In this document: piece after piece, positions 3,900-53,000 of the stretch
How the letters are laid out: every line of letters begins with the position of its first letter
Position numbering within the stretch: position 1 is the first letter of the stretch
The notes under the pieces: generated by a model
The model's input: the letters and a program-made list of their open reading frames with translations, nothing else
The model's database searches: none
What the model was told of the DNA's origin: nothing
NCBI RefSeq assembly: GCF_964204645.1
Contig: NC_134036.1
Location: 1,922,001 to 1,986,000 of the forward strand
Origin: Tubulanus polymorphus
Lineage: Eukaryota; Nemertea; Palaeonemertea; Tubulaniformes; Tubulanidae
DNA: 64,000 bases
Direction of reading: 5' to 3'
Translations under genes and position numbers: made by a program

Positions 3900-5360
3900 T
3901 CAAACTTTACTTGGACGAAATTAATCTTTGTCATCTAATTTCTAATGTAATTTCTCATTCGTCAAGATGATTTGCATATTCAGAAATCGATAGTTAGAGT
4001 CTGAATTTATTTTTAAAATAATATTTTCTTTCTGACTTTACCCTTTTGTCACATTTAGTTTAAACTACGTTACAACAGCCGGCCTCTGATTTTTCAAAGA
4101 CAAATAAATCTTAATTCTTAAAGAATTAGATTTAGCTGCACTAGCAGCTGATGTTGCTGTTATTGAAGCTGTTCGGATCTAATCCACAATTAACGGATAA
4201 TCTCCTTTTACGACAGGTGCGCGTCGACGCCATTGTCACCGGTCAAACAGATTAACAGCCGGACGCGTAAATAGGGGATTAACGAGGGATTATCGTAGGT
4301 AACGGATTATAGCCAGTGTTATTGATATCATTGATGAATTGAAGCGGATTTATCCGACCAATAAGGCCTAGTGGACACAAAAGAACAACATACTTGCGGT
4401 GTGTACCGGTGATTGCGCAATGACATTGTCTATTAGCTTATAAGGAGGAGAACGGTTTTCACCTGCGCGCAACCAATATAAACTCCATTAATAGATTCAA
4501 TTGGCTATTGATGTCACGAAAAAAAGAACAAATGAATAGGAAACTGGACAACTTAATAATATTGATTCCAATTTAGGATTATTACTATTGCTCATAGGCT
4601 AGATGAAAGCTATGTTTATGTAGCCCGCGTAAGACCTATAGAATGTATGGCTATTGATGTCATGAGAAACTCCCTGAGTTTTCCAGATTTTGGGGAAAAT
4701 TTATCAAATTCCTTGCAGTTTTCTTCCAGATTTATCGATTTTCCTAGATTCTTCCGCATTGGGTTTATTGCGATCGGTTTGTTGAAGTTCAATATAGGTA
4801 TATAGGCTGGTATTGATGCAGTTTCTCTAGTTTAGTAAGGCGACGCCGTGTCAGTGGGTTGAGTTAAGAGTTACACTCGAAACTTGCCAGCATCATCAAG
4901 TACTTCCGCGTCTTTGTGAAGTTGATGCTCGCGAAGAGGCTTTTACATAATAATTTACCAGCGCGAAGAGTTTACCGTGAACAATAACGGAGACCTGCCC
5001 AATATAGCGCGGGTTAAGTTTACTTTCTCTATAGAATAAAAACTAGAAAGTATCTTTTCATCTTGCTCTCCTTGATTGTAGAGAATTTGCATAATTAGAA
5101 CCAGAGTCACGCGATGAGGCCTATCATGTAATAATGTGTATGTACAGGACTTTATCGGATATCGTCGCGACTCCATGGCGACTGGGGTTCTCACAGGTGC
5201 TCGTCCGAATTAGTTTCGTCGTAGTTTTAAAGCATGTCGTATTATGGAGGCAATTGTTTAGAAAAAAAGTGACGGAACCATCCCCACAATAAGGTGGCAG
5301 AAGGATCGCTTCTACCATAATCTTACGACATCTTGAAATTGATATAGTGATATACGTAGA
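3900..5360. other. Intergenic, no gene seen
   Basis: No frame over 80 codons and no recognisable domain. Bases 4180-4480 are somewhat CpG-rich and contain GACAGGTGCGCGTCGACGCC; the core ACAGGTGCGCG recurs at 17.98 kb and a near copy at 1.25 kb. Confidence 0.5.
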
Positions 5361-5384
5361 CTCTTCGAGAGACGTCTGCTCCTA

Positions 5385-5520
5385 AGAGAATCCCCCTATG
5401 ACATCACCAAACTGATCTATAGATAAAGATGGCTACATCTACCATAATCCCCCTATGACATCAACAAATTGATATGGTAGATACTTTCAGAAAAGATGGC
5501 TACCTCTATAAAGATATGGT
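5385..5520 (+). repeat. Dispersed AAAGATGGCTAC / CCCCTATGACATCA repeat
   Basis: Two copies of a block pairing AAAGATGGCTAC with AATCCCCCTATGACATCA. The same block occurs twice at 24.89-25.03 kb. Related single pieces lie at 12.5 kb (inverted, TGACGTCATAGGGGG) and 24.75 kb. It directly abuts the candidate peptide exon that follows. Confidence 0.6.
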
Positions 5521-5578
5521 GGTAAGGACACTTCTAGAAAATATGCTGCTTTCAAATATTTGTCGGAAGATAAAAAAA

Positions 5579-5815
5579 ATGTCTAAAGAGGAAGCATCAT
5601 GTGTTTGTTTATATAGGGTTCTGATAATTTTTGCATTTTTCATTATTTGTTCGTTGTCTGTTTCTTATGGCGAAAGCCTGAAGCTGCTGGATCCTATATT
5701 ATCTAGAGATCACGATCGTAACAATGCTCTCAAAAATGTCTCTGATGAGGACACGACGCAAATAGTGCGTTTAATAAAGATCTCGGTGAAAGAAACCGGT
5801 TTTCAATACGGATGA
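5579..5815 (+). CDS. Candidate small secreted peptide exon (unrecognised)
   Basis: A 78-codon frame, read from an ATG that follows a run of A residues. Residues 10-29 are strongly hydrophobic (LYRVLIIFAFFIICSLSVSY) after a short polar start, as in a signal peptide or signal anchor. The rest is hydrophilic and ends GFQYG before the stop; a C-terminal glycine is the amide donor in many neuropeptide precursors, but there is no dibasic cleavage site before it. The frame is open further upstream into repeat DNA, so a longer start is possible. A donor-like TCG-GTGAAAG near the end would allow splicing to an unseen exon. No homology is recognised; chance cannot be excluded. Confidence 0.3.
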   Translation: MSKEEASCVCLYRVLIIFAFFIICSLSVSYGESLKLLDPILSRDHDRNNALKNVSDEDTTQIVRLIKISVKETGFQYG

Positions 5816-5819
5816 ACAG

Positions 5820-7385
5820 GATGTCTATTGTACGACCTGGAGACCCACCTGCGCCTATAGAGAGATTGAGGGAGAGGTAGCCGAAATTTTAAACGGGGGG
5901 GATATTCTATTATGATATAAAGAATAATGATACAACCTATTATAATTATTTTCGATTGAGCGCTCGAAATAGTGAATCATCGTCCATAGGGCTTTTATAC
6001 AGTCTGGTGATTTGGGAATTATGATTGATTGATAGCGCCCGGGCGTCAGCCCACGCCCCATCCCCCCTTCCTCCCGGTATTTATAATACTCAGTATTTGC
6101 TCGCGGTCACAAAGTTCACAAACTTTCTGATCGAATCCGTTCATGTATAAACCGCACTATCCCAAGGTCATTCGTCAATCGTTCGGACGTTGCCGTTATT
6201 AACATAACGAACGAGATTGTTGTAGTATTCAAATATTACTCTTAGACCAAGGCTCGACGCCTTCCATTACAAAAAACCGGATGTTTAAGGGACAATGTAA
6301 AAACAAAGTCTCGCGAGGGATTTCTCCTCTTCCCGGCTAAACGGACCAATAGCTATAGGCAATAAGAGGTTTATGGTTCTCCCGGCTGTGGTGAACTTTT
6401 ACGAGTAGGTGGTTATATTGATTTTGCACTTTACAAACTTTTGTATCGCGACAACAATGGGAGTCGTTAAGTTTCAGTTGAATAGACAGATTTCAAATAC
6501 TGATAATAAAAGATGACGAGGTCAAACATTTTAGAGACACACATCTCAAAATTAAAGTACACATTCTCATCGATACGTTTGATATTTGAGATTGATTTTG
6601 AGATGATATTTGAGATTTTATGGAGGTCAATAGATTACTGATAATGCGTTGTTTACTGATTTGAATTATATGACATTTTCGACGAGGATGTAGCCCACCT
6701 GTGACGATATTGGTTAAGTCAGCTATTGTCTAAAATCAACAGTGTAGCCTAAGCAGTCCTATTATTGAAATCTCGAAAACTAGGTTACCTTTGGATATCA
6801 CTAGAATATCATCCGTCGGTAAAATAAATTGAGACAGAAATTTGAGATATTACGACGGCTATCATAAAAAGACATTTAGAAAGATTATCTAATTGAATCT
6901 TAATGACTTCAAACTGTTTAATTTCCAATCCAACATAACTAACCGTTATTCGATTACTGATTACGCAACAATTGATATATAAGAATCTGTGGTTTTCATA
7001 GCAACGTCCTATACTAAAATCGCCTCTGTTCATCACAAGTCTCATTTTCATTGTATCATCAAAATTGCTTCGAGCTTCGTGAATTTTACGTCCAATTAAA
7101 CTCGACACTTACTATAGCTATCATTAAATGATGATCTTCACTTAATAACGAAATGTCCAATAATTCCCTAGTGACAACGATAACATTTATTTTATAAATA
7201 GTGTGGATAATAATGGTGATAATTTAAACTTCTAACGGTTTCTAAAACTGTTGCATTTAAAGCGATGAATGTTTTGAATAGAATTATGTAATTCGTTTTT
7301 AGTATCAAAGACTGAAGGCCCCCAAGGAGAAGGAATTTGAAAGTCTTGTGGTCCGTTAGTATTCAACCCTATCTATCTATACGGT
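5820..7385. other. Intergenic, no gene seen
   Basis: AT-rich DNA with only short frames; the longest, at 6809-7108 (-), is 99 codons with no recognisable domain or splice support. Bases 6530-6620 contain short imperfect repeats of GATATTTGAGATT. Confidence 0.5.
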
Positions 7386-7389
7386 CGGC

Positions 7390-7630
7390 CTTGGTTTGGT
7401 TGACAAGGCCTTTGACTCTATTGCAATCCGACTAAAAGTTAACTTAAATCGTCGGTTTTTAACACACAAAAGGTCTTCGACTCAATTACACACTTCAAAC
7501 TCTAGAACAAAACACACCCGTTGATTTTCGAAAAGCGTTTGATCGGATGATAATCAACAGTTTCCAAGGCATTTTTTTTCCGCTGTTTTCTTCTTTGATT
7601 TCACTAAAGCGTTTGATTTTTACCCATCTT
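7390..7630 (+). pseudogene. Four degenerate repeats of a LINE reverse-transcriptase motif-A segment
   Basis: Short segments encode, in order, LVDKAFDSIA (about 7397), KVFDSIT (about 7468), VDFRKAFDRMI (about 7519) and FDFTKAFDFY (about 7589). DFxKAFDxV is the motif-A signature around the first catalytic Asp of LINE-type reverse transcriptases. The copies sit 50-75 bp apart in different frames, and no other RT motif (such as YADD) is found nearby. They therefore look like tandem or nested copies of one fragment, not a decayed full element. Copies 3 and 4 are also alike as DNA (GATTTT/C...AAAGCGTTTGAT). A fifth short match, FQKAFDKE, is near 8613. Confidence 0.45.
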
Positions 7631-8865
7631 ATCTTAAACTGCCTTCACTGAAGCTCTTGAAAGCTTTCTTCAGATTAGCAAACAGTCCTCTTTATAGACT
7701 TCATCAACACATTCGAGACCGTGTCAACTCTGAAACAATTTCGCCAAGGCGCCATTTGATCCCATCAATTAGAATCATTATCAAACCTCAGCTCACACGA
7801 GATCTTGCACCTCCCTGACGAGATCAAACCACTTCATAGCCTAGGATCCCAACAAAACCACTAAACAACGCTCTTCATCACATCATCACTACAAACACAC
7901 TCATCTGCCTGACAACTTTTGTTACTAACATCTCTTTCTCACGTGCATTCACCGGACGTGTTACCTATAGCGGCGGTGGTCATACGATCGCGAATAAAGT
8001 CTTTCAAACGGCCGCCGAACTTACAACAATTCCCGGGCAATCTATAAACTAGATTGTATACTATTATAACCATGGGTGCAAATTCTAACGGCGTAAATTA
8101 GTCAACGTCGCGATAATGATTTGGGAAATGCGACGCTTCTGATCTTCTGATCGTATTGCACCGAACCGGGCGGATAGCAACGACTATAAGCACGTCTTCA
8201 GATGCCTCAAAATTCTCTAAACTTGAATCCCTTCTTAGGAATTATCAATCTAAACACTAAGCACGAATATTAGAACCTTTTTTTTATAGAATATTTAAAG
8301 TTCATTTCCATGGTCTGACTTCTGACTTTCTAACAAATTTTTCTTAATTCAGGCTATCGGTTAGCTCCGACCAAATCTACCACGGTCTCAGCAAGTCTGA
8401 GTTAGGTAAGGTCTATGTGCATATTCATCTTTATGTCGTCGGCCATTTTAACTTTTCACATTTCAAAACAGACTTTACCACCGTGGAGAAAAATCTCTTC
8501 AATATATATATGCAAATTCGGCATCTATTGAATTCTATTTTCTATCTCGGGTAGTGAATGCATTTTTATAGTCGCTTTCAATGCGAGTAAGTTAATGCAT
8601 TAAAGCACTCGAGTTTCAAAAGGCATTTGACAAGGAACAGGATGCGGGTGCGCATACTTTACTTGATTCGAAAGATAGTTGTTCAAGCGTTATGTCTTCC
8701 TCATTCTAAACGACAGATATCTAGATTTTGTTAGTAGAGATATTGTATGACATTGAATATAGTGGCTTCCTATCTATCTAATGTAGGTATGAATCCGAAG
8801 GTTGGAACCACACCCTTTTAGATATTCGTAGTGTGAGGATGATTTAGCTAATTAAGCATCTATAA
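7631..8865. other. Intergenic, no gene seen
   Basis: No frame of note. Apart from the isolated KAFD-like match near 8613, the stretch shows no repeat or regulatory cluster that I can support. Confidence 0.5.
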
Positions 8866-32061: not shown

Positions 32062-32805
32062 TTGAGAACTTTTTTATTCAACGTTTCGACTATATCCTAA
32101 TAGTCATCTTCAGGAATACTGTATTCCTTGAGCTAGTGTAGTCTATTCAACGATTAGACCATATCCTAATAGTAATCTTCAGGAATACTGTATTCCTTGA
32201 GCTAGTGTAGTTTATTCGACGTTTCGACTATATCCTAATAGTCATCTTCAGGAATACTGTATTCCTTGAGTTAGTGTAGTTTATTCAACGTTTCGACTTT
32301 ATCCTAATAGTCATCTTCAGGAATACTGTATTCCTTGAGCTAGTGTAGTTTATTCAACGTTTCGACTTTATCCTAATAGTCATCTTCAGGAATACTGTAT
32401 TCCTTGAGCTAGTGTAGTTTATTCAACGTTACGACTTTATCCTAATAGTCATCTTCAGGAATACTGTATTCCTTGAGCTAGTGTAGTTTATTCAACGTTT
32501 CGACTTTATCCTAATATCATCTTCAGGAATACTGTATACCTTGAGCTAGTGTAGTTTATTCAACGTTTCGACTATATCCTAATAGTCATCTTCAGGAATA
32601 CTGTATTCCTTGAGCTAGTGTAGTTTATTCAACGTTTCGACTTTATCCTAATAGTCATCTTCAGGAATACTGTATTCCTTGAGCTAGTGTAGCTTATTCA
32701 ACGTTTCGACTTTATCCTAATAGTCATCTTCAGGAATACTGTATTCATTGAGCTAGTGTAGTTTATTCAACGTTTTGACTTTGTCCTTATACAGGTAATC
32801 ATATT
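32062..32805 (-). repeat. 69-bp satellite, about 10 copies, minus orientation
   Basis: Units read on the minus strand as CCTGAAGATGACTATTAGGA, TAAAGTCGAAACGTTGAATA, AACTACACTAGCTCAAGG and the near-palindrome AGGAATACAGTATTCCT. The copies are about 95 percent alike by eye and decay at the right end. The same unit forms a larger array in the opposite orientation at 41.1-42.27 kb. Each unit carries CTGAAGA, a pairable TGACT...AGTCG stem and GAAAC, resembling part of a hammerhead ribozyme core. Confidence 0.95.
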
Positions 32806-41109: not shown

Positions 41110-42272
41110 TTCTTATTCCTGATGATGACTATTAGGATAAAGACAAAACGTTGAATAAACTACACTAGCTCAAGGAATACAGTATTCCTGAAGATGACTA
41201 TTAGGATATAGTCGAAACGTCGAATAAACTACACTAGCTCAAGGAATACAGTATTCCTGAAGATGACTATTAGGATAAAGACAAAACGTTGAATAAACTA
41301 CACTAGCTCAAGGAATACAGTATTCCTGAAGATGACTATTAGGATATAGTCGAAACGTCGAATAAACTACACTAGCTCAAGGAATACAGTATTCCTGAAG
41401 ATGACTATTAGGATAAAGACAAAACGTTGAATAAACTACACTAGCTCAAGGAATACAGTATTCCTGAAGATGACTATTAGGATAAAGACAAAACGTTGAA
41501 TAAACTACACTAGCTCAAGGAATACAGTATTCCTAAAGATGACTATTAGGATAAAGACAATACGTTGAATAAACTACACTAGCTCAAGGAATACAGTATT
41601 CCTGAAGATGACTATTAGGATAAAGACAAAACGTTGAATAAACTACACTAGCTCAAGGAATACAGTATTCCTGAAGATGACTATTAGGATATAGTCGAAA
41701 CGTCGAATAAACTACACTAGCTCAAGGAATACAGTATTCCTGAAGATGACTATTAGGATAAAGACAAAACGTTGAATAAACTACACTAGCTCATGGAATA
41801 CAGTATTCCTGAAGATGACTATTAGGATAAAGACAAAACGTTGAATAAACTGCACTAGCTCAAGTAATACAGTATTCCTGAAGATGACTATTAGGATATA
41901 GTCGAAACGTCGAATAAACTACACTAGCTCAAGGAATACAGTATTCCTGAAGATGACTATTAGGATAAAGACAAAATGTTGAATAAACTACACTAGCTCA
42001 AGGAATACAGTATTCCTAAAGATGACTATTAGGATAAAGTCGAAACGTTGAATAAACTACACTAGCTCAAGGAATACAGTATTCCTGAAGATGACTATTA
42101 GGATAAAGACAAAATGTTGAATAAACTACACTAGCTCAAGGAATACAGTATTCCTAAAGATGACTATTAGGATAGAGTCGAAACGTTGAATAAACTACAC
42201 TAGCTCAAGGAATACAGTATTCCTGAAGATGACTTTTAGGATATAGTCAAAACGTTGAATAAACTACTATCT
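41110..42272 (+). repeat. 69-bp satellite, about 17 copies, plus orientation
   Basis: The same unit as at 32.06 kb but inverted relative to it. Two sub-types are interspersed. One reads GGATATAGTCGAAACGTCG, the other GGATAAAGACAAAACGTTG. In the first, TGACTAT and ATAGTCG can pair as a 7-bp stem between CTGAAGA and AAACG; in the second, this pairing is broken. Every unit has the near-palindrome AGGAATACAGTATTCCT. 40906-41109 has no gene. Confidence 0.95.
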
Positions 42273-45776: not shown

Positions 45777-48585
45777 ACCTGTCCGAGTGCAGGGGAGCAG
45801 CTTCCAGGCTGTAGGGGGGGGGGGAGCAGGTTCCAGGCTTCAGACAAGGACCGACATTTTAACCGGCCATAAATATTCATCGGCTCCTATTCGTCGTTTC
45901 GTGTTCAGGAATTCAGTTCACGTTCCTTTGAACAATTTGCGCGCGCGCACACAAACCATTATTAGACATCTCATCGTCCCGTTTCTATGGTAACGGAATT
46001 TAGAGGATTAGTCGGCGCGAACGAACGTCATACACAAATCCACCCGTCGCCCCATCCCGTCTCTCCCCCTCACTCCCTCTACCCTCACCCCCTCCCTATA
46101 ATCTACACTCCCTCGCCCCTCCTGATCCTCCACATTCCCACTCCCCGTCACTGTCCCTCGGGCACGAATCAAACGAATGAAATCTTGCGATTTCTCCAAT
46201 TCTTTCTAATAACGCTCTTTATTTATGTTAACTCTGTAAGGTGGTATAATATATAATTTATTAATTTATTTATTATAATGATATATACACCATATATGAA
46301 AATAAACAGAAGATTTAGTACCCAGCCCTAATTAAGATTGATAAGTTACTTTTTCCTGTGTCTTTTCTGTTTTATATCTGTAGGAACGTGCTCAAAAACA
46401 AGCCATGCAGCACTTCGTCTGTCGTTTATATATTTCTGATATCTTTCTTATCTGAAAAAAAACTTATTCGAAATGAAAAAAAGAACCAAAAGTCAATCAT
46501 TCTTTTATCATTTTCATATTTTTTAAAATGTTTTTATTTCATCTGTATAATTTCTCAATTGTTCATTTTATTTTTGTATTATTTTTACTATTCTTATATT
46601 CATTATTTTCGTATCATTTATATTATTTTTTAAATCATTTATATAATTCTTATTTTATCTAGATCATTTCTATATTATTCATATTATTTCTACATTGTTT
46701 ATATTATTTTTTGTATACGCGCATTCAATCCCTTGACGCGAGACATTTGGGGCTTTCAGGAGAATTATTTCATAGAAAAAATTATAATTTTCAGGCCGGT
46801 TGAATTTTTCTGCCTCTGCCTTTTGGCAGTAATAATGATACGTTACAGGGCGTTGATAAGGTACAGGGCGTTGATAATAATATTGACAAATACAGAATTG
46901 GGACTCAAAATATGGACCAGTTCTATGTAGGCCTGATAAGGATTTTGAGGGACGTTGAAAAGAGTCCTTTTTGCGCCATTAAAGACAATTTTTGTTTTTA
47001 TATACATTCAGATTTCTTTAAGATGGTGATATTTTCTACCGAGAAGGCACCGGACCGTGTGATACAATGGCGATAACCCAAAAAAGAGATCGGGATGGTC
47101 GAAATGTATCCACGACCACCAAATGGGGAACATACAGAGGACATCTTTCCTCAGACCGCGGATTCGAAGCTACATGTATTCTCACGATTAGGTAGAACTT
47201 ATTTGTTTTTAGTTTTCTAGTGCCAGTATTCTGAAAACCAGGTAGGACCCTTTCTGTTTTTTTAGCCAGTTTCTCGTTTATGTACAAATTCCTATCGAAA
47301 AATATCTCGTAGTCTATGAAATGAAATTGATGAATTTTTAAGATTTTTATTACATTCATCACCTCCAAGAGATATTTGCAGAGCAAGCATTTACAAAATG
47401 ACAAATTTCAGCAATACTTCTATAAATACGTTGTACTGTATCGCCATCTATCGGGTGAATAATGAAACGTTCCCAGTGACAGCTCAACGCACTGGTCGTC
47501 TTTGATACCAATATCGATGCAATCGCCATCTATCGGTTTCTCGGTGTAATACAACCAAGACTTCATGTTCAACATTCGCTGCGCTAGTCCCATGCATTAT
47601 TTATAACCTGCTCATCCACCAGATGGCGAACGAGTGCTTGCACCCGAAAAGCACGTACCGTCATTTCCATCACTGCCGCTAGTAGTCGCTGGGAATTACT
47701 ATCTGTAAATGCCGCCAGACGTCGTTGCGCGCGATGTTAAAAAAAGTTGATCACAGTTTTATGCGCTGACGTGATACCGATCGATAATCACTAACGGTTT
47801 TTCTCTCGTTTGAACAAGTTGATCGATCAACAATCGGAACCGTTTTTTCATCGATGACATCACGGGAGCTTAGTAACGTAAGTTTTTTGTTTTCTTTCAT
47901 TTGTTTACTCTTCCACTTTATCATTCTCGAACTTCTGGTACCGGTCAGTATCACCTATAGCATGTCCCACGTCGGGGCGAAATGATTCGTGGTAAGATTT
48001 TAAATTTCGATTTACGTAAGAATTATTGCCATGGTTTTCATCCATATTGTCGTGACAGAACCAGTTAGGTTGAGGGGTTTATCGGCTGGTATCCGACGAC
48101 TACGGAACCAGTTCTAAGCCGTAGGTTAAAGTTTGACTCAAAGTTAAAACATAACTTGATTTAAAATAAGTTGATTTTTCTGATGAGTCACATCTTCACG
48201 GTCATACCTAGCAGAGGGACCCAGACATTTTGGGAAAGTGCCCTTTTTGTATATATTTTGTACATATTAATTGTTATGTCTTATAGAACTGCCCTTTTTC
48301 GGGTTTCCTGCCCTTTTTTGGTACGGCCCTTATCTTAACTCAATGAACTGGGTCCTGGTATATATTCGACATGTTTGTTTTAAAGTTTTGAATTTTCAGT
48401 AATAGGCCTATTCTGCTTAAAAGGCCATCGAAAGTGTAAGAGTTTCATCATAGAATTTCAAAAAGAAAAAAAAAACGAACAGATTTTCACAGAAGAAAGT
48501 TTATTATCGATTTTTCAAAAAATGAAATAAATTAATATTGTGCATAGATTATGCATATCCGATATTTACAAACAAAAGCAAACAT
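45777..48585. other. Intergenic; cluster of CGCCATCTATCGG-like words at 47440-47640
   Basis: No supported gene. 46010-46150 is C-rich; 46490-46710 is a T-rich, degenerate ATTATTTYTAT stretch. At 47440-47640 occur ATCGCCATCTATCGG twice and CCACCAGATGGCGAAC once. The last fits 13 of 15 positions of the CTCF core CCASYAGRKGGCRSY. Function is unproven. Confidence 0.35.
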
Positions 48586-48589
48586 TTAG

Positions 48590-49310
48590 ATTCGAAACCA
48601 TGACGTTTTTGCCATTGACAAAAATGCAAACCCCTTATTCTGTTTACTCTCCAAAATATCTAAGATATCGAAACCATGACGTGGTTTGCCCAAATTCTGT
48701 TTACTCTCCAAAATATCTAAGATATCGAAACCATGACGTGGTTTGCCCAAATTCAGTTTATTCTCCAAAATATTTTCCATGTCGAAACCATGACGTGCAT
48801 TAAGCCCAAAACGCAAATTCAAAGGGCTCAATATTTAGCCTTAAATTTTCCAAAATATGTTTGTATTTTGGATTTCGAAACCATGACGTTTGTTTGCCAT
48901 TTACCCAAATCCAAGGTGTTTTAATTCTGTTTTTTCCTCCAAAATATTTAAGATCTCGAAACCATGACGTGTTAACTAAAAATCGAAAGCCTCATTTTTC
49001 AGGCCGGGATCTTTAGATTTCGAAACCATGACGTTTTTTGCGACAAACTAAAATCCAAGGCCTCGTTTTTCTCCAAAATATCTAAGACGTCGAAACCATG
49101 ACGTGGTTTGCCATCAACTAAAGGCCTCATTTTCCAGACCTATGTCTTTAGAAGTCGAATCATTCTTTTCGCCATTGTCGCTATTTTGGCCTTTATTTTC
49201 CTAAATATCCAATGGTATCGGAACCCATGCGTCGCTATGCCAATCCTAGCCACTACTATGGCGTTCTCCTCCAAAATATTTCCACTGTCGAGACCACTGT
49301 TACATTATTT
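48590..49310 (+). repeat. Tandem array of DM-domain zinc-knuckle fragments
   Basis: Eight clear copies of TCGAAACCATGACGT (48592, 48668, 48725, 48782, 48875, 48956, 49020, 49090), then three degenerate ones. Where complete, each is preceded by CTCCAAAATATYT. Copies 2-4 have an exact 57-bp period. The unit matches the Dmrt exon at 50146-50181 in 30 of 36 bases, with identical 20-base spacing between TCTCCAAAAT and TCGAAACC. Translated, copies 2 and 3 read SPKYLRYRNHDV against [12 protein letters not shown] in the gene. The zinc ligands are mostly lost (Cys to Tyr), so no functional DM domain is encoded. Similarity may extend further 3' in copy 8 (AACTAAAGG against AACTGAAAGG). Confidence 0.85.
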
Positions 49311-50020
49311 TGCCACTATAGACTAATGAAGCCAAACACGATTTCGTCCGGTGGTGTAACGCGCTCTAAAGAATCTGTTTTAGTAACAACATTTCGCGTG
49401 CACATCAAAACATGACGTTGAACTTTTTCCAAACGGCACTCCCTCAAACAGCAAGCTACATCTCCTAAATCATTCTTTAAACATGTGTCGCTACTGGCAT
49501 CTGAATCGGGTTCGACCTGAAAATATAAATTGTAAATCGTGAGCGTGTTGGTAAGAGTCTAAAAATAGATGGACTCAACAAGAGACGTAGAAATGGAAAT
49601 GCTGCAATAATACTAAGCTCGAACTGTTCAAATGGATTTAGAGGTTTACTGTCAAACAGTAAATTCATGATCACACATTTTTTCCTAAACTAATATAAAA
49701 TGTACCTTTTACATTCAGTGTGCGATACCTTCACATTCCGTGTGCGACACCTAACGAGACGTGTGCCACACCCCGCTGGAAGTGTGCGCTACCCACTCAA
49801 ACAACCGATCTTTATATACATTGTAACCAACTGTTTAAAACATATCGTTTGCCTAACTGTTAACCAATCAGATTCTCCCCGATAGTGTCACGTGCTATGA
49901 TAAAAATCAGCCATTGGTTGATTGATTACTCAGTCGAGGGACTCTAACGTTCCAAAACTATGAACGTCATTTGATCTTACGGCATCGTTACGCTTGTTAC
50001 GTTACGTTACGTTTTTTACA
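49311..50020 (+). other. Upstream region of the Dmrt gene
   Basis: 49712-49795 has four GTGTGCGACACCT-like words (GTGTGCGATACCT, GTGTGCGACACCT, GTGTGCCACACC, GTGTGCGCTACC) about 22-28 bp apart, a possible factor-binding cluster. 49995-50014 has GTTACGTTAC repeats followed by TTTTTTACAG, a good splice acceptor ending at 50021. A 5'-UTR intron may therefore precede the coding exon. No promoter is pinpointed. Confidence 0.35.
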
Positions 50021-50079
50021 GGTGATTGTCGAGTCTTCAATCAGACAACACCACCGTTGCCATAACTACGGCGGTAACA

Positions 50080-53000
50080 ATGCCGAAAGATGTTACGTCA
50101 GTGATAACCAACGCTGCAGGTGGCGCTGCCAGTAAGCGTCTGCGTTCTCCAAAATGTTCTAGATGTCGAAACCATGGCGTGATAGCCGAACTGAAAGGAC
50201 ATAAGCGCTACTGTAGGTGGCGCGACTGTCGCTGCGTGAAATGTTTATTGATCAACGAGCGACAACGAGTAATGGCGGCCCAGGTGGCGCTGCGACGGCA
50301 ACAGGTAATTATAGATTCGATATTTGTCTGTCAGTGTTAACACTAGTAATGTAACAACATAGGATTCTTAGATGGGGAAAACCCAACTGATAGCGCCCCC
50401 TAGTTGTGTTTCGTTGCATTTCAATGAATTGTAATGAACACCAGGGGACAGGACTAGCTAACTCGTATAAATAATTTAATGTCACTTAAACGCCACCTAG
50501 TGGGTTTTATCATTTAACGTTCTGTGGCATAACATCGGTTTAGAATGATGCTTAGATTTTTTTTGCTGGATATATTTCCAGGAACAGGAAGTAGCGATGG
50601 GATTGTGTGTGCCCATACCCATATCGACTTTAGACGGTGGGACTGCTTCTTCGGAAAATACCACCTTCTCACCCTCGAAACTGAAAAGACTGGCCCTCTT
50701 ACACGGCAACTGTATCACCCAAGGTGAGTTCCCGAGGGGTAGCAGGTTGCTTTGATATTCGCAGTAGGATCAGAGCCAAATTTTTGGCCTCTTTAATATA
50801 TATCTTAAAAACTAAGATGGCCGCTATAGCAGCTATATGAATTCTTACACAAATTTGAGAAAATACAAAGATGGCTGCTATGCGACTTAATCGATGGAAA
50901 TCTTCCGAAATTTATAAAAACGTCGTGAACGCAACGCGGAACATAAGTGGCCCAGTTCCACAGTTCTGATTTAAATTTGATTCTAGAGTTAAAACATTGA
51001 AGATGAACAGACTTTAACTCTGAGTGAACTCTAACTCACAACTGTGGAACCGGGCCATGGAGTTTAGTGATAGTAAAAAATTGAAGATGGTTGTTCATTG
51101 AATAGCCGATGGTTTAGATTAACTATTTTAATCTCAACTGCTTGGTTGTGTATCGTCAATGGACCTTTGAGACGGTCAAATTCGTCATGATGATAAGGCG
51201 GCATCCCGTATCTGGTATCGGTTAGCCTATAGGCCAAAATAACAATGTAACTATATACGATAATAGTATTTACATCGTGAATGGTATTTCAGCTATGGCA
51301 TTAAATCAGCGAGTTTAGGAGGAACTTGTCTGGCAACAAAATTACTTACATGTCTCGATTGTTTGTTTTCTGCGCACGTCGCCTTAAAGAAAAATAACAA
51401 AGGGATCCGCGTTGTAATTGTTATTGCATCGAGAAGATTTATGAAGGTTTCTTGACAGCGGTCTTTCTTTCATACAGGCCCAGGAGAAATTAAACACGAA
51501 TTCTCTTGTAATTTCGGGAAATAAAAAAGAACATTTTGGAAACGGGTGATAAAATGCTTTAAAAACTGAATAACAAAAATAGTAAAACAGGTTAAAGCCA
51601 AGGTGACTAACTCTTGACTTTTGACCAAGTCAAAAAATTAGGAAAAGTCCCCTGAATCACCAAATGATGCAACACAGAAATTGTTTTGCCTTCCATTCAA
51701 CGGCTAGGGGCTGCGGTAACGATAGTAACAATGAAATTTGAATTGACTGTCAACTATCCACTGGTTAAGTCCAACCAACTTTTGAGATTTGACCCAGCTG
51801 GTTAACTCTTTTGAACAACTGCAGCCCCTGATATTAACAATGAACTTTCAATTGTCATTATGTCAACTATCCACTGGTTAAGTCTAACCAACTTTTGAGC
51901 AACTGCAGTCCCTGATAGTGACAATGAACTTTTAATTTTCACTATGTCAACTATCCACTGGTTAACCTTTAACCAAATATTTCGAATCAAAGTTTACTTA
52001 GCTCTAACGGCCAACAGATAATTCAGTTTGCTTCGACTACATTTTGATCCCACGCTTCAAAATCTGCAACAGATAATTCAGTTTGCGTCGCCTTCATCTC
52101 TTGACTCATGTCGTTTATTTTATTACATAATAAAACATTCTATGTACGGATATACTCTTTAAATGGCAACAGACTTTCAAAGTTCAATCCAACTTCGTAA
52201 AAAAGAAATCCTCGCATGGCTTACGGAAATAAACAAGGTCCGCCGTAGCGACCCCGGAACCGGAGAATGGTTATACTATAGCCTTCAAAACTAACAAATT
52301 TCACTTCGACTTCGACTCTCGCCTGTTCGCTACAAAAGTGGTAATAATTGCGAATGATGAATGCGCAAGGTTGACCGCTCTAAATTCTATAAACATAAGC
52401 CCAAAATGTACATACGTTTCCAACGTACCAACCAAATTCTGATGATCCATTTCTATGTAGCCAAGGTGCTAAATATGAAACCACCATCACCAACCCTATC
52501 AGGAGAGCCTTCTTCTATAACCCAACACATCTTTGAATCGTACATCAGTCTGATTGTGTGGATATTATGTACATTTAGCTTCACATTCATATGTAGCCCA
52601 TGGCCGTGACCGGTGTCCAACAAGCCCATGATATCCACGAGGCTATCCATTGTTAACGCCGCTAATGCTGGTAAATAAAGAAAACCAATATTAAGACTCA
52701 TTATATCGCAGTGCTAATGACCCATCTCAAGGCGAACTAAATTCTGATGATCCATTTCTGTAAACAAGATGCTTAATATGAAATCATCATCACCAACCCA
52801 AGCAGGTGAGCCTTCTAACCCAACCCATCTTGGCCTCTTGAGCACCAAATATCAAAGCACATCCTACACAGCATAGAACTTTAAAACTAACATCGTTCCA
52901 ATTTCATCATCAACCAAGACCCCTGTTCTGCATCAAGCTTAAGTACAAGAACGAAGGCTTGCTTCGAAAAAGTAAGACTCACAAGAAAGATCGTGGCTAT

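Follow-up and report, generated by a model that had tools for sequence, protein, structure and literature searches.

Promoter minisatellites, or VNTRs, are short tandem arrays in the upstream regions of genes, and the array described here, which lies about 1 kb upstream of the DM-domain exon of a Dmrt gene in Tubulanus polymorphus and on the same strand, is like them in its position; unlike them, its unit resembles the coding exon of the gene itself and carries one invariant core. Dmrt genes form a family with sex-determination genes among its members. A satellite derived from a DM domain is not found among the literature matches listed, and the closest described systems each share one aspect with the present locus. 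A protein-coding gene has likewise been the source of repeated pieces in Eremias velox, whose W chromosome bears amplified fragments of ATF7IP2 (PMC8160951). The lizard repeats comprise three of ten exons along with SINEs and extend along the whole sex chromosome (PMC8160951), whereas at our locus the repeat involves ~37 bases of a single exon in ~11 units, adjacent to the gene that is its likely parent. A partial copy of the first DM exon at the same Dmrt locus is, in turn, shared with Solea senegalensis, in which dmrt1 exhibits a partial internal duplication containing a partial, non-functional copy of exon I (PMC7605655). That duplication is, however, a single event of ~10 kb which spans several exons and is linked to a SINE, and no short-unit array is described for it (PMC7605655).

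We analysed a window of 64,000 nucleotides, i.e., the whole stretch C12:1922001-1986000, and conducted genome searches that covered 267.8 Mb in 77 contigs. The array is real, local and very probably derived from a DM exon; it is most likely a local minisatellite that was seeded by a short copy of such an exon, and is an odd but probably ordinary representative of its kind. New here are (i) the limit of ~37 bases to which the homology with the exon extends, and (ii) the conservation in one sharply bounded 15-base core, the latter of which the earlier note on this DNA had missed. The features of the locus are collected in Table 1, and the DM-domain exon is referred to as exon 1 in what follows. 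An AG located 3' of a T-run (50020-50021) represents, as read from the sequence, a candidate splice acceptor, so that the Dmrt gene may possibly possess a further 5' exon ahead of 50080. The genome search yielded five DM exons, the local one included, while the DMA domain gave matches near two DM genes on contig C2 and no match on C12. The paralogue on contig C1 (C1:16791092-16791229) is a divergent DM gene; over 84 bases, its exon shares 76% identity with the local one.

Table 1. Coordinates, within the window, of the array and of the neighbouring Dmrt gene
Feature	Position	Strand	Remarks
Array block U1-U8	48592..49104	+	eight units, each with the exact 15-base core TCGAAACCATGACGT
Intact core starts, U1-U8	48592, 48668, 48725, 48782, 48875, 48956, 49020, 49090	+	
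Near-regular 57-bp part, 2.8 copies	48637..48797	+	Tandem Repeats Finder
End of U8 spacer and decayed units U9-U11	49105..49310	+	cores near 49154, 49218, 49288
DM-domain exon (exon 1), coding part	50080..50304	+	75 codons, full-length DM match PF00751 (E 3.2e-24), then GT
Parent-like segment in exon 1	50145..50181	+	BLAST and pairwise comparison with the array
Second coding exon of the Dmrt gene, probable	50582..50723	+	splice sites read from the sequence

The array comprises ~11 units, eight with an intact core and about three decayed towards the gene, and since the units are arranged head-to-tail at one locus and fall within 10-100 bases, it belongs to the minisatellites. Successive intact cores are spaced by 76, 57, 57, 93, 81, 64 and 70 bases. 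Hence, an exact 57-bp period is kept in three copies (starts at 48668, 48725 and 48782), just as the earlier note had stated, and elsewhere the spacing ranges between 63 and 93; the 57-bp part is all of the array that Tandem Repeats Finder calls. Decay is greatest in the units nearest the Dmrt gene, and the farther units are more regular. U9 and U10 were recognised by eye, each being weak on its own, and U11 keeps CTCCAAAATAT upstream of its broken core. The spacers are T- and A-rich, 42-78 bases long and align poorly among units, and most of them share blocks in one order, namely TTTGCC followed by TCTCCAAAATAT. Minisatellites are abundant in the surroundings: the window contains 24 merged arrays with a period of at least 25, this one included. 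Related sequence elsewhere in the window (E up to 1e-3) exists for 13 of these 24; furthermore, one and the same 69-base unit is found in opposite orientation, and about 94% alike, at 32073-32791 and 41114-42267.

Compared with exon 1, the array attains a score of 50 (its reverse complement 16), while the maximum is 30 for 1000 shuffled arrays and 35 for 1000 shuffled exons, and 122 other pieces of the window score at most 26 against exon 1. The array has thus withstood the shuffled-sequence control proposed in the earlier note, and the view expressed there that part of a DM exon was captured and then amplified as a small array beside the gene is strengthened by the same scores. Likewise, if no more than 3 mismatches are allowed, the pattern TCGAAACCATGRCGT matches the window 12 times (8 in the array, 1 in the exon, 3 elsewhere), compared with a mean of 3.0 and a largest count of 7 in 100 shuffles, none of which reaches 12. 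The likeness spans only ~37 bases of exon 1 (50145-50181). A longer homology, suggested by eye from a GCC...AAAGG likeness, was rejected, as the likeness beyond the ~37 bases is not above that of shuffled sequences (p 0.44 downstream and p 0.80 upstream). The likeness between array and DM exon is therefore beyond chance and of limited extent. As the longest exact match between array and exon 1 measures 14 bases and the likeness ends after ~37, gene conversion or unequal exchange with exon 1, both contemplated in the earlier note, are unlikely. No DM match (E up to 1) was obtained for the stop-to-stop array frames 48531-48803, 48804-49016 and 49052-49204, as opposed to E 3.2e-24 for exon 1, and a coding use of the array was rejected: the DM coding potential is lost.

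The individual units differ in how much of the exon they retain. Over an ungapped 36-base block, U4 is the unit closest to exon 1 (31/36), U2, U3, U6 and U8 each match at 30/36, and lower scores are registered for U11 (22), U5 and U7 (21 each), U1 (18), U10 (13) and U9 (10), where U5 has an insertion before the core and U9 and U10 were scored one base off register. The 'eight copies at 30 of 36 bases' reported previously thus hold for the core, which is present in eight units, but not for the full 36-base block, which is found in 5 of 11. The counterpart of the core in exon 1 is TCGAAACCATGGCGT at 50166. Two substitutions relative to the exon are common to the units: G11A, through which the first zinc-binding Cys is lost, is encountered in each of the six units whose block is in register (U2, U3, U4, U6, U8 and U11), in agreement with the proposal that the first Cys change is shared wherever the block is complete, and G32A, the anticipated change from Gly to Asp, is present in 8/8 intact cores. 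The second Cys-to-Tyr change that had been postulated, in contrast, is confined to U2 and U3, while U4 keeps TGT and the codon of U8 is CGT (G kept). A trend from G to A is accordingly visible at two shared sites and at one site in U2 and U3 only, too few to speak of a bias. Since G11A and G32A are shared by all in-register units, these changes probably predate the amplification, which supports the idea that the array grew from an already mutated copy.

The exact core TCGAAACCATGACGT occurs at 10 places in the genome, eight in the array and two on contig C4, and the backwards control at none. On C4, the exact 15-mer is extended to TGACGTCA in two near-identical stretches ~2.9 kb apart, each of which precedes what looks by eye like a duplicated gene copy; the two places are one event. 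By eye, the region concerned (L014, about 4600-8400) seems to contain a gene that encodes a small secreted protein and was duplicated in tandem, with TGACGTCA in both copies. An array-derived pattern, in which unit-variable columns had been masked after the exon was seen so that some exon differences are hidden, has 25 genomic matches when up to 3 mismatches are tolerated, and the backwards pattern has 3. Five array units rank first (0-1 mismatches), followed by the DM exons of C1 and C12 (2 each). Among the 18 places with 3 mismatches one is U11 and 17 are off-locus, 8 of the latter being copies of one multi-contig sequence. BLAST of the exon (E up to 1) yields 10 hits at the local locus, 8 of them in the array, compared with 2, 1, 0 and 1 hits of 11-16 bases in the 16-kb surroundings of the four remaining DM exons, where a comparable array is thus absent. 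When the whole array served as the query of a DNA search, the sole match was the array itself, the search being too insensitive to list even exon 1; with exon 1 as the query, the C1 paralogue was matched and the array missed. Because short copies that have diverged escape such searches, it is the pattern searches that carry the single-locus claim; at the sensitivity of the searches, there is one array locus in the genome.

Arrays carried by mobile elements are reported, for example for Helentrons (PMC7492417). Such carriage is unsupported here: genome searches with the array and with the 800 bases on its gene side returned only these sequences themselves, and in the 821 bases on its left a dispersed part is confined to about 48192-48314, outside the array. 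This dispersed repeat, located mostly at 48220-48314 and hence ~280 bases left of the array, has at least 39 further matches in the genome.

Taken as a whole, the locus is best explained, in our judgement with somewhat better than even confidence, by a local exon piece that was copied upstream, mutated early, became amplified and is probably without function. According to this scenario, a DM-domain exon, in all likelihood that of the local gene, would have given rise to a copy of ~37 bases that came to lie ~1 kb upstream in the same orientation. Two or more point changes (Cys to Tyr and Gly to Asp) would have been fixed early, and the exon piece, along with spacer rich in T and A, would then have been amplified to form a small minisatellite, as happened in many parts of this window. 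The core may have remained unchanged either as the part that was re-copied or as a part that binds something, and we put the functionless reading first. That the copying proceeded by short templated insertion and from gene to array, as well as the relative ages of the parts and the lack of function, is what we infer from the sequence.

Plain neutral decay is not what gives a core that is unchanged in eight units beside flanks in which 22-24% of the cells are off the column consensus; in that count, 0/88 core cells deviate (88 rather than 120, owing to gap columns within the first 15). In the core-anchored alignment, the 8 units are identical at 15/15 positions, whereas 5 of them deviate at position -1 and 3 at the first post-core position, and 1/35 of the other positions examined outside the core is invariant. 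Parsimony requires 1.1-1.45 changes per column for the eight spacers, and the five best-aligned flanks, with 9-10 changes in 21 columns, lead to P 0.0008-0.0016 for none in 15, a conservative count that precedes correction for the post hoc choice of the block. No other 15-column block ranks above the core under three alignment settings and two unit cuttings, whether 8 units or all 11 are entered (column permutation, p 0 to 0.0006 of 5000); U1-U8 were selected for an intact core, and once the decayed units are included, the core keeps its first rank but is no longer invariant. The same block test gave p 0.29-1.0, and a longest-invariant-run test p 0.09-0.95, for 11 other arrays of the window, chosen from the 23 other merged arrays with copies above 1.7 periods dropped, which are less diverged and thus provide less power (mean column identity 0.88-0.98 vs 0.71-0.75 for the eight units). 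The core is kept more than the spacers, as in a cis-regulatory array, although neutral re-copying of the core also fits. Either constraint acts on it, therefore, or it is the unit that is re-copied.

If constrained, the core may have been preserved because proteins bind to its repeated copies upstream of Dmrt, the array having been exapted for regulation after G32A had turned TGGCGT into TGACGT, which we take to be a CREB/ATF-type bZIP half-site and which is present in all eight intact cores. We regard this as a tentative alternative of clearly lower probability than a functionless array. The absence of changes at 15 positions in 8 units with sharp borders, the outcome of the block test and the recurrence of the exact 15-mer, extended to TGACGTCA, ahead of two apparent gene copies on C4 are in line with it. 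However, the P value from the five flanks awaits correction for choosing the block, the control arrays have less power, the two places on C4 count as one event, and the core is lost in 3/11 units. The genome-wide excess of the motif is, moreover, weak and could be explained by CpG make-up: the 12-mer AAACCATGACGT occurs at 34 places outside the array vs 18 for the backwards control, and for the 15-mer, one mismatch being tolerated, the count is 27 places vs 12 in the control, array and local exon excluded. The core was accordingly rejected as a genome-wide motif. In its most far-reaching form, which we deem less probable still, a fragment of a DM exon might have become a bZIP-type site by one point change and been amplified upstream of its own gene, an exon-to-enhancer exaptation in which the Dmrt gene would have drawn its regulatory array from its own coding sequence.

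Alternatively, the core may have been re-copied repeatedly, through templated insertions or conversion tracts, in which case the cores would be younger than the spacers and functionless. This is a version of our best explanation and compatible with it, and the sharp core borders and the poor alignment of the 42-78-base spacers would then be expected. Yet the ordered TTTGCC and TCTCCAAAATAT blocks in most spacers indicate that whole units were duplicated too, and we consider repeated re-copying rather doubtful.

A parent other than the local exon, that is, the DM exon of C1 or a DM copy since lost, is likewise compatible with the rest of our best explanation, and is in our view unlikely. The earlier note had named the local gene as the parent; it does have the best score, with 47 for the unit and 50 for the array, but the C1 exon is nearly equal with 44 and 44, the other three DM exons reaching 16-26, and both exons tie at 2 mismatches in the genome-wide pattern search. 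Because the C1 exon fits almost equally well, the assignment of the local exon rests partly on position: it is ~1 kb away in the same orientation, and its match, besides scoring higher, runs through CGTG.

It appears improbable that antisense or small RNAs arise from the array and target the mRNA of Dmrt in the manner of satellite piRNAs or hairpin RNAs. With the likeness on the same strand, an antisense transcript could conceivably pair in part with exon 1, but exact matches do not exceed 14 bases, which makes RNA slicing unlikely; furthermore, inverted repeats of at least 18 were absent from 48300-50400, and Rfam gave no match at gathering scores in 47000-52000. Finally, chance likeness of a minisatellite and an exon, for which one might invoke the AT-rich array and the frequency of words like CGAAAC in the window, is highly improbable, given that the shuffle and window controls (at most 35 and 26) fall well below the array score of 50 and that the genome-wide pattern search places two DM exons next after the array.

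If neutral, the array which we favour as an amplified piece of a local exon still offers an instance in which the seed of a minisatellite is identifiable. If the core turned out to be functional, this would be a clear example of coding DNA recycled for repeated regulatory use beside a member of a gene family linked to sex determination, and the locus would constitute a natural test of how minisatellites can rewire such genes.
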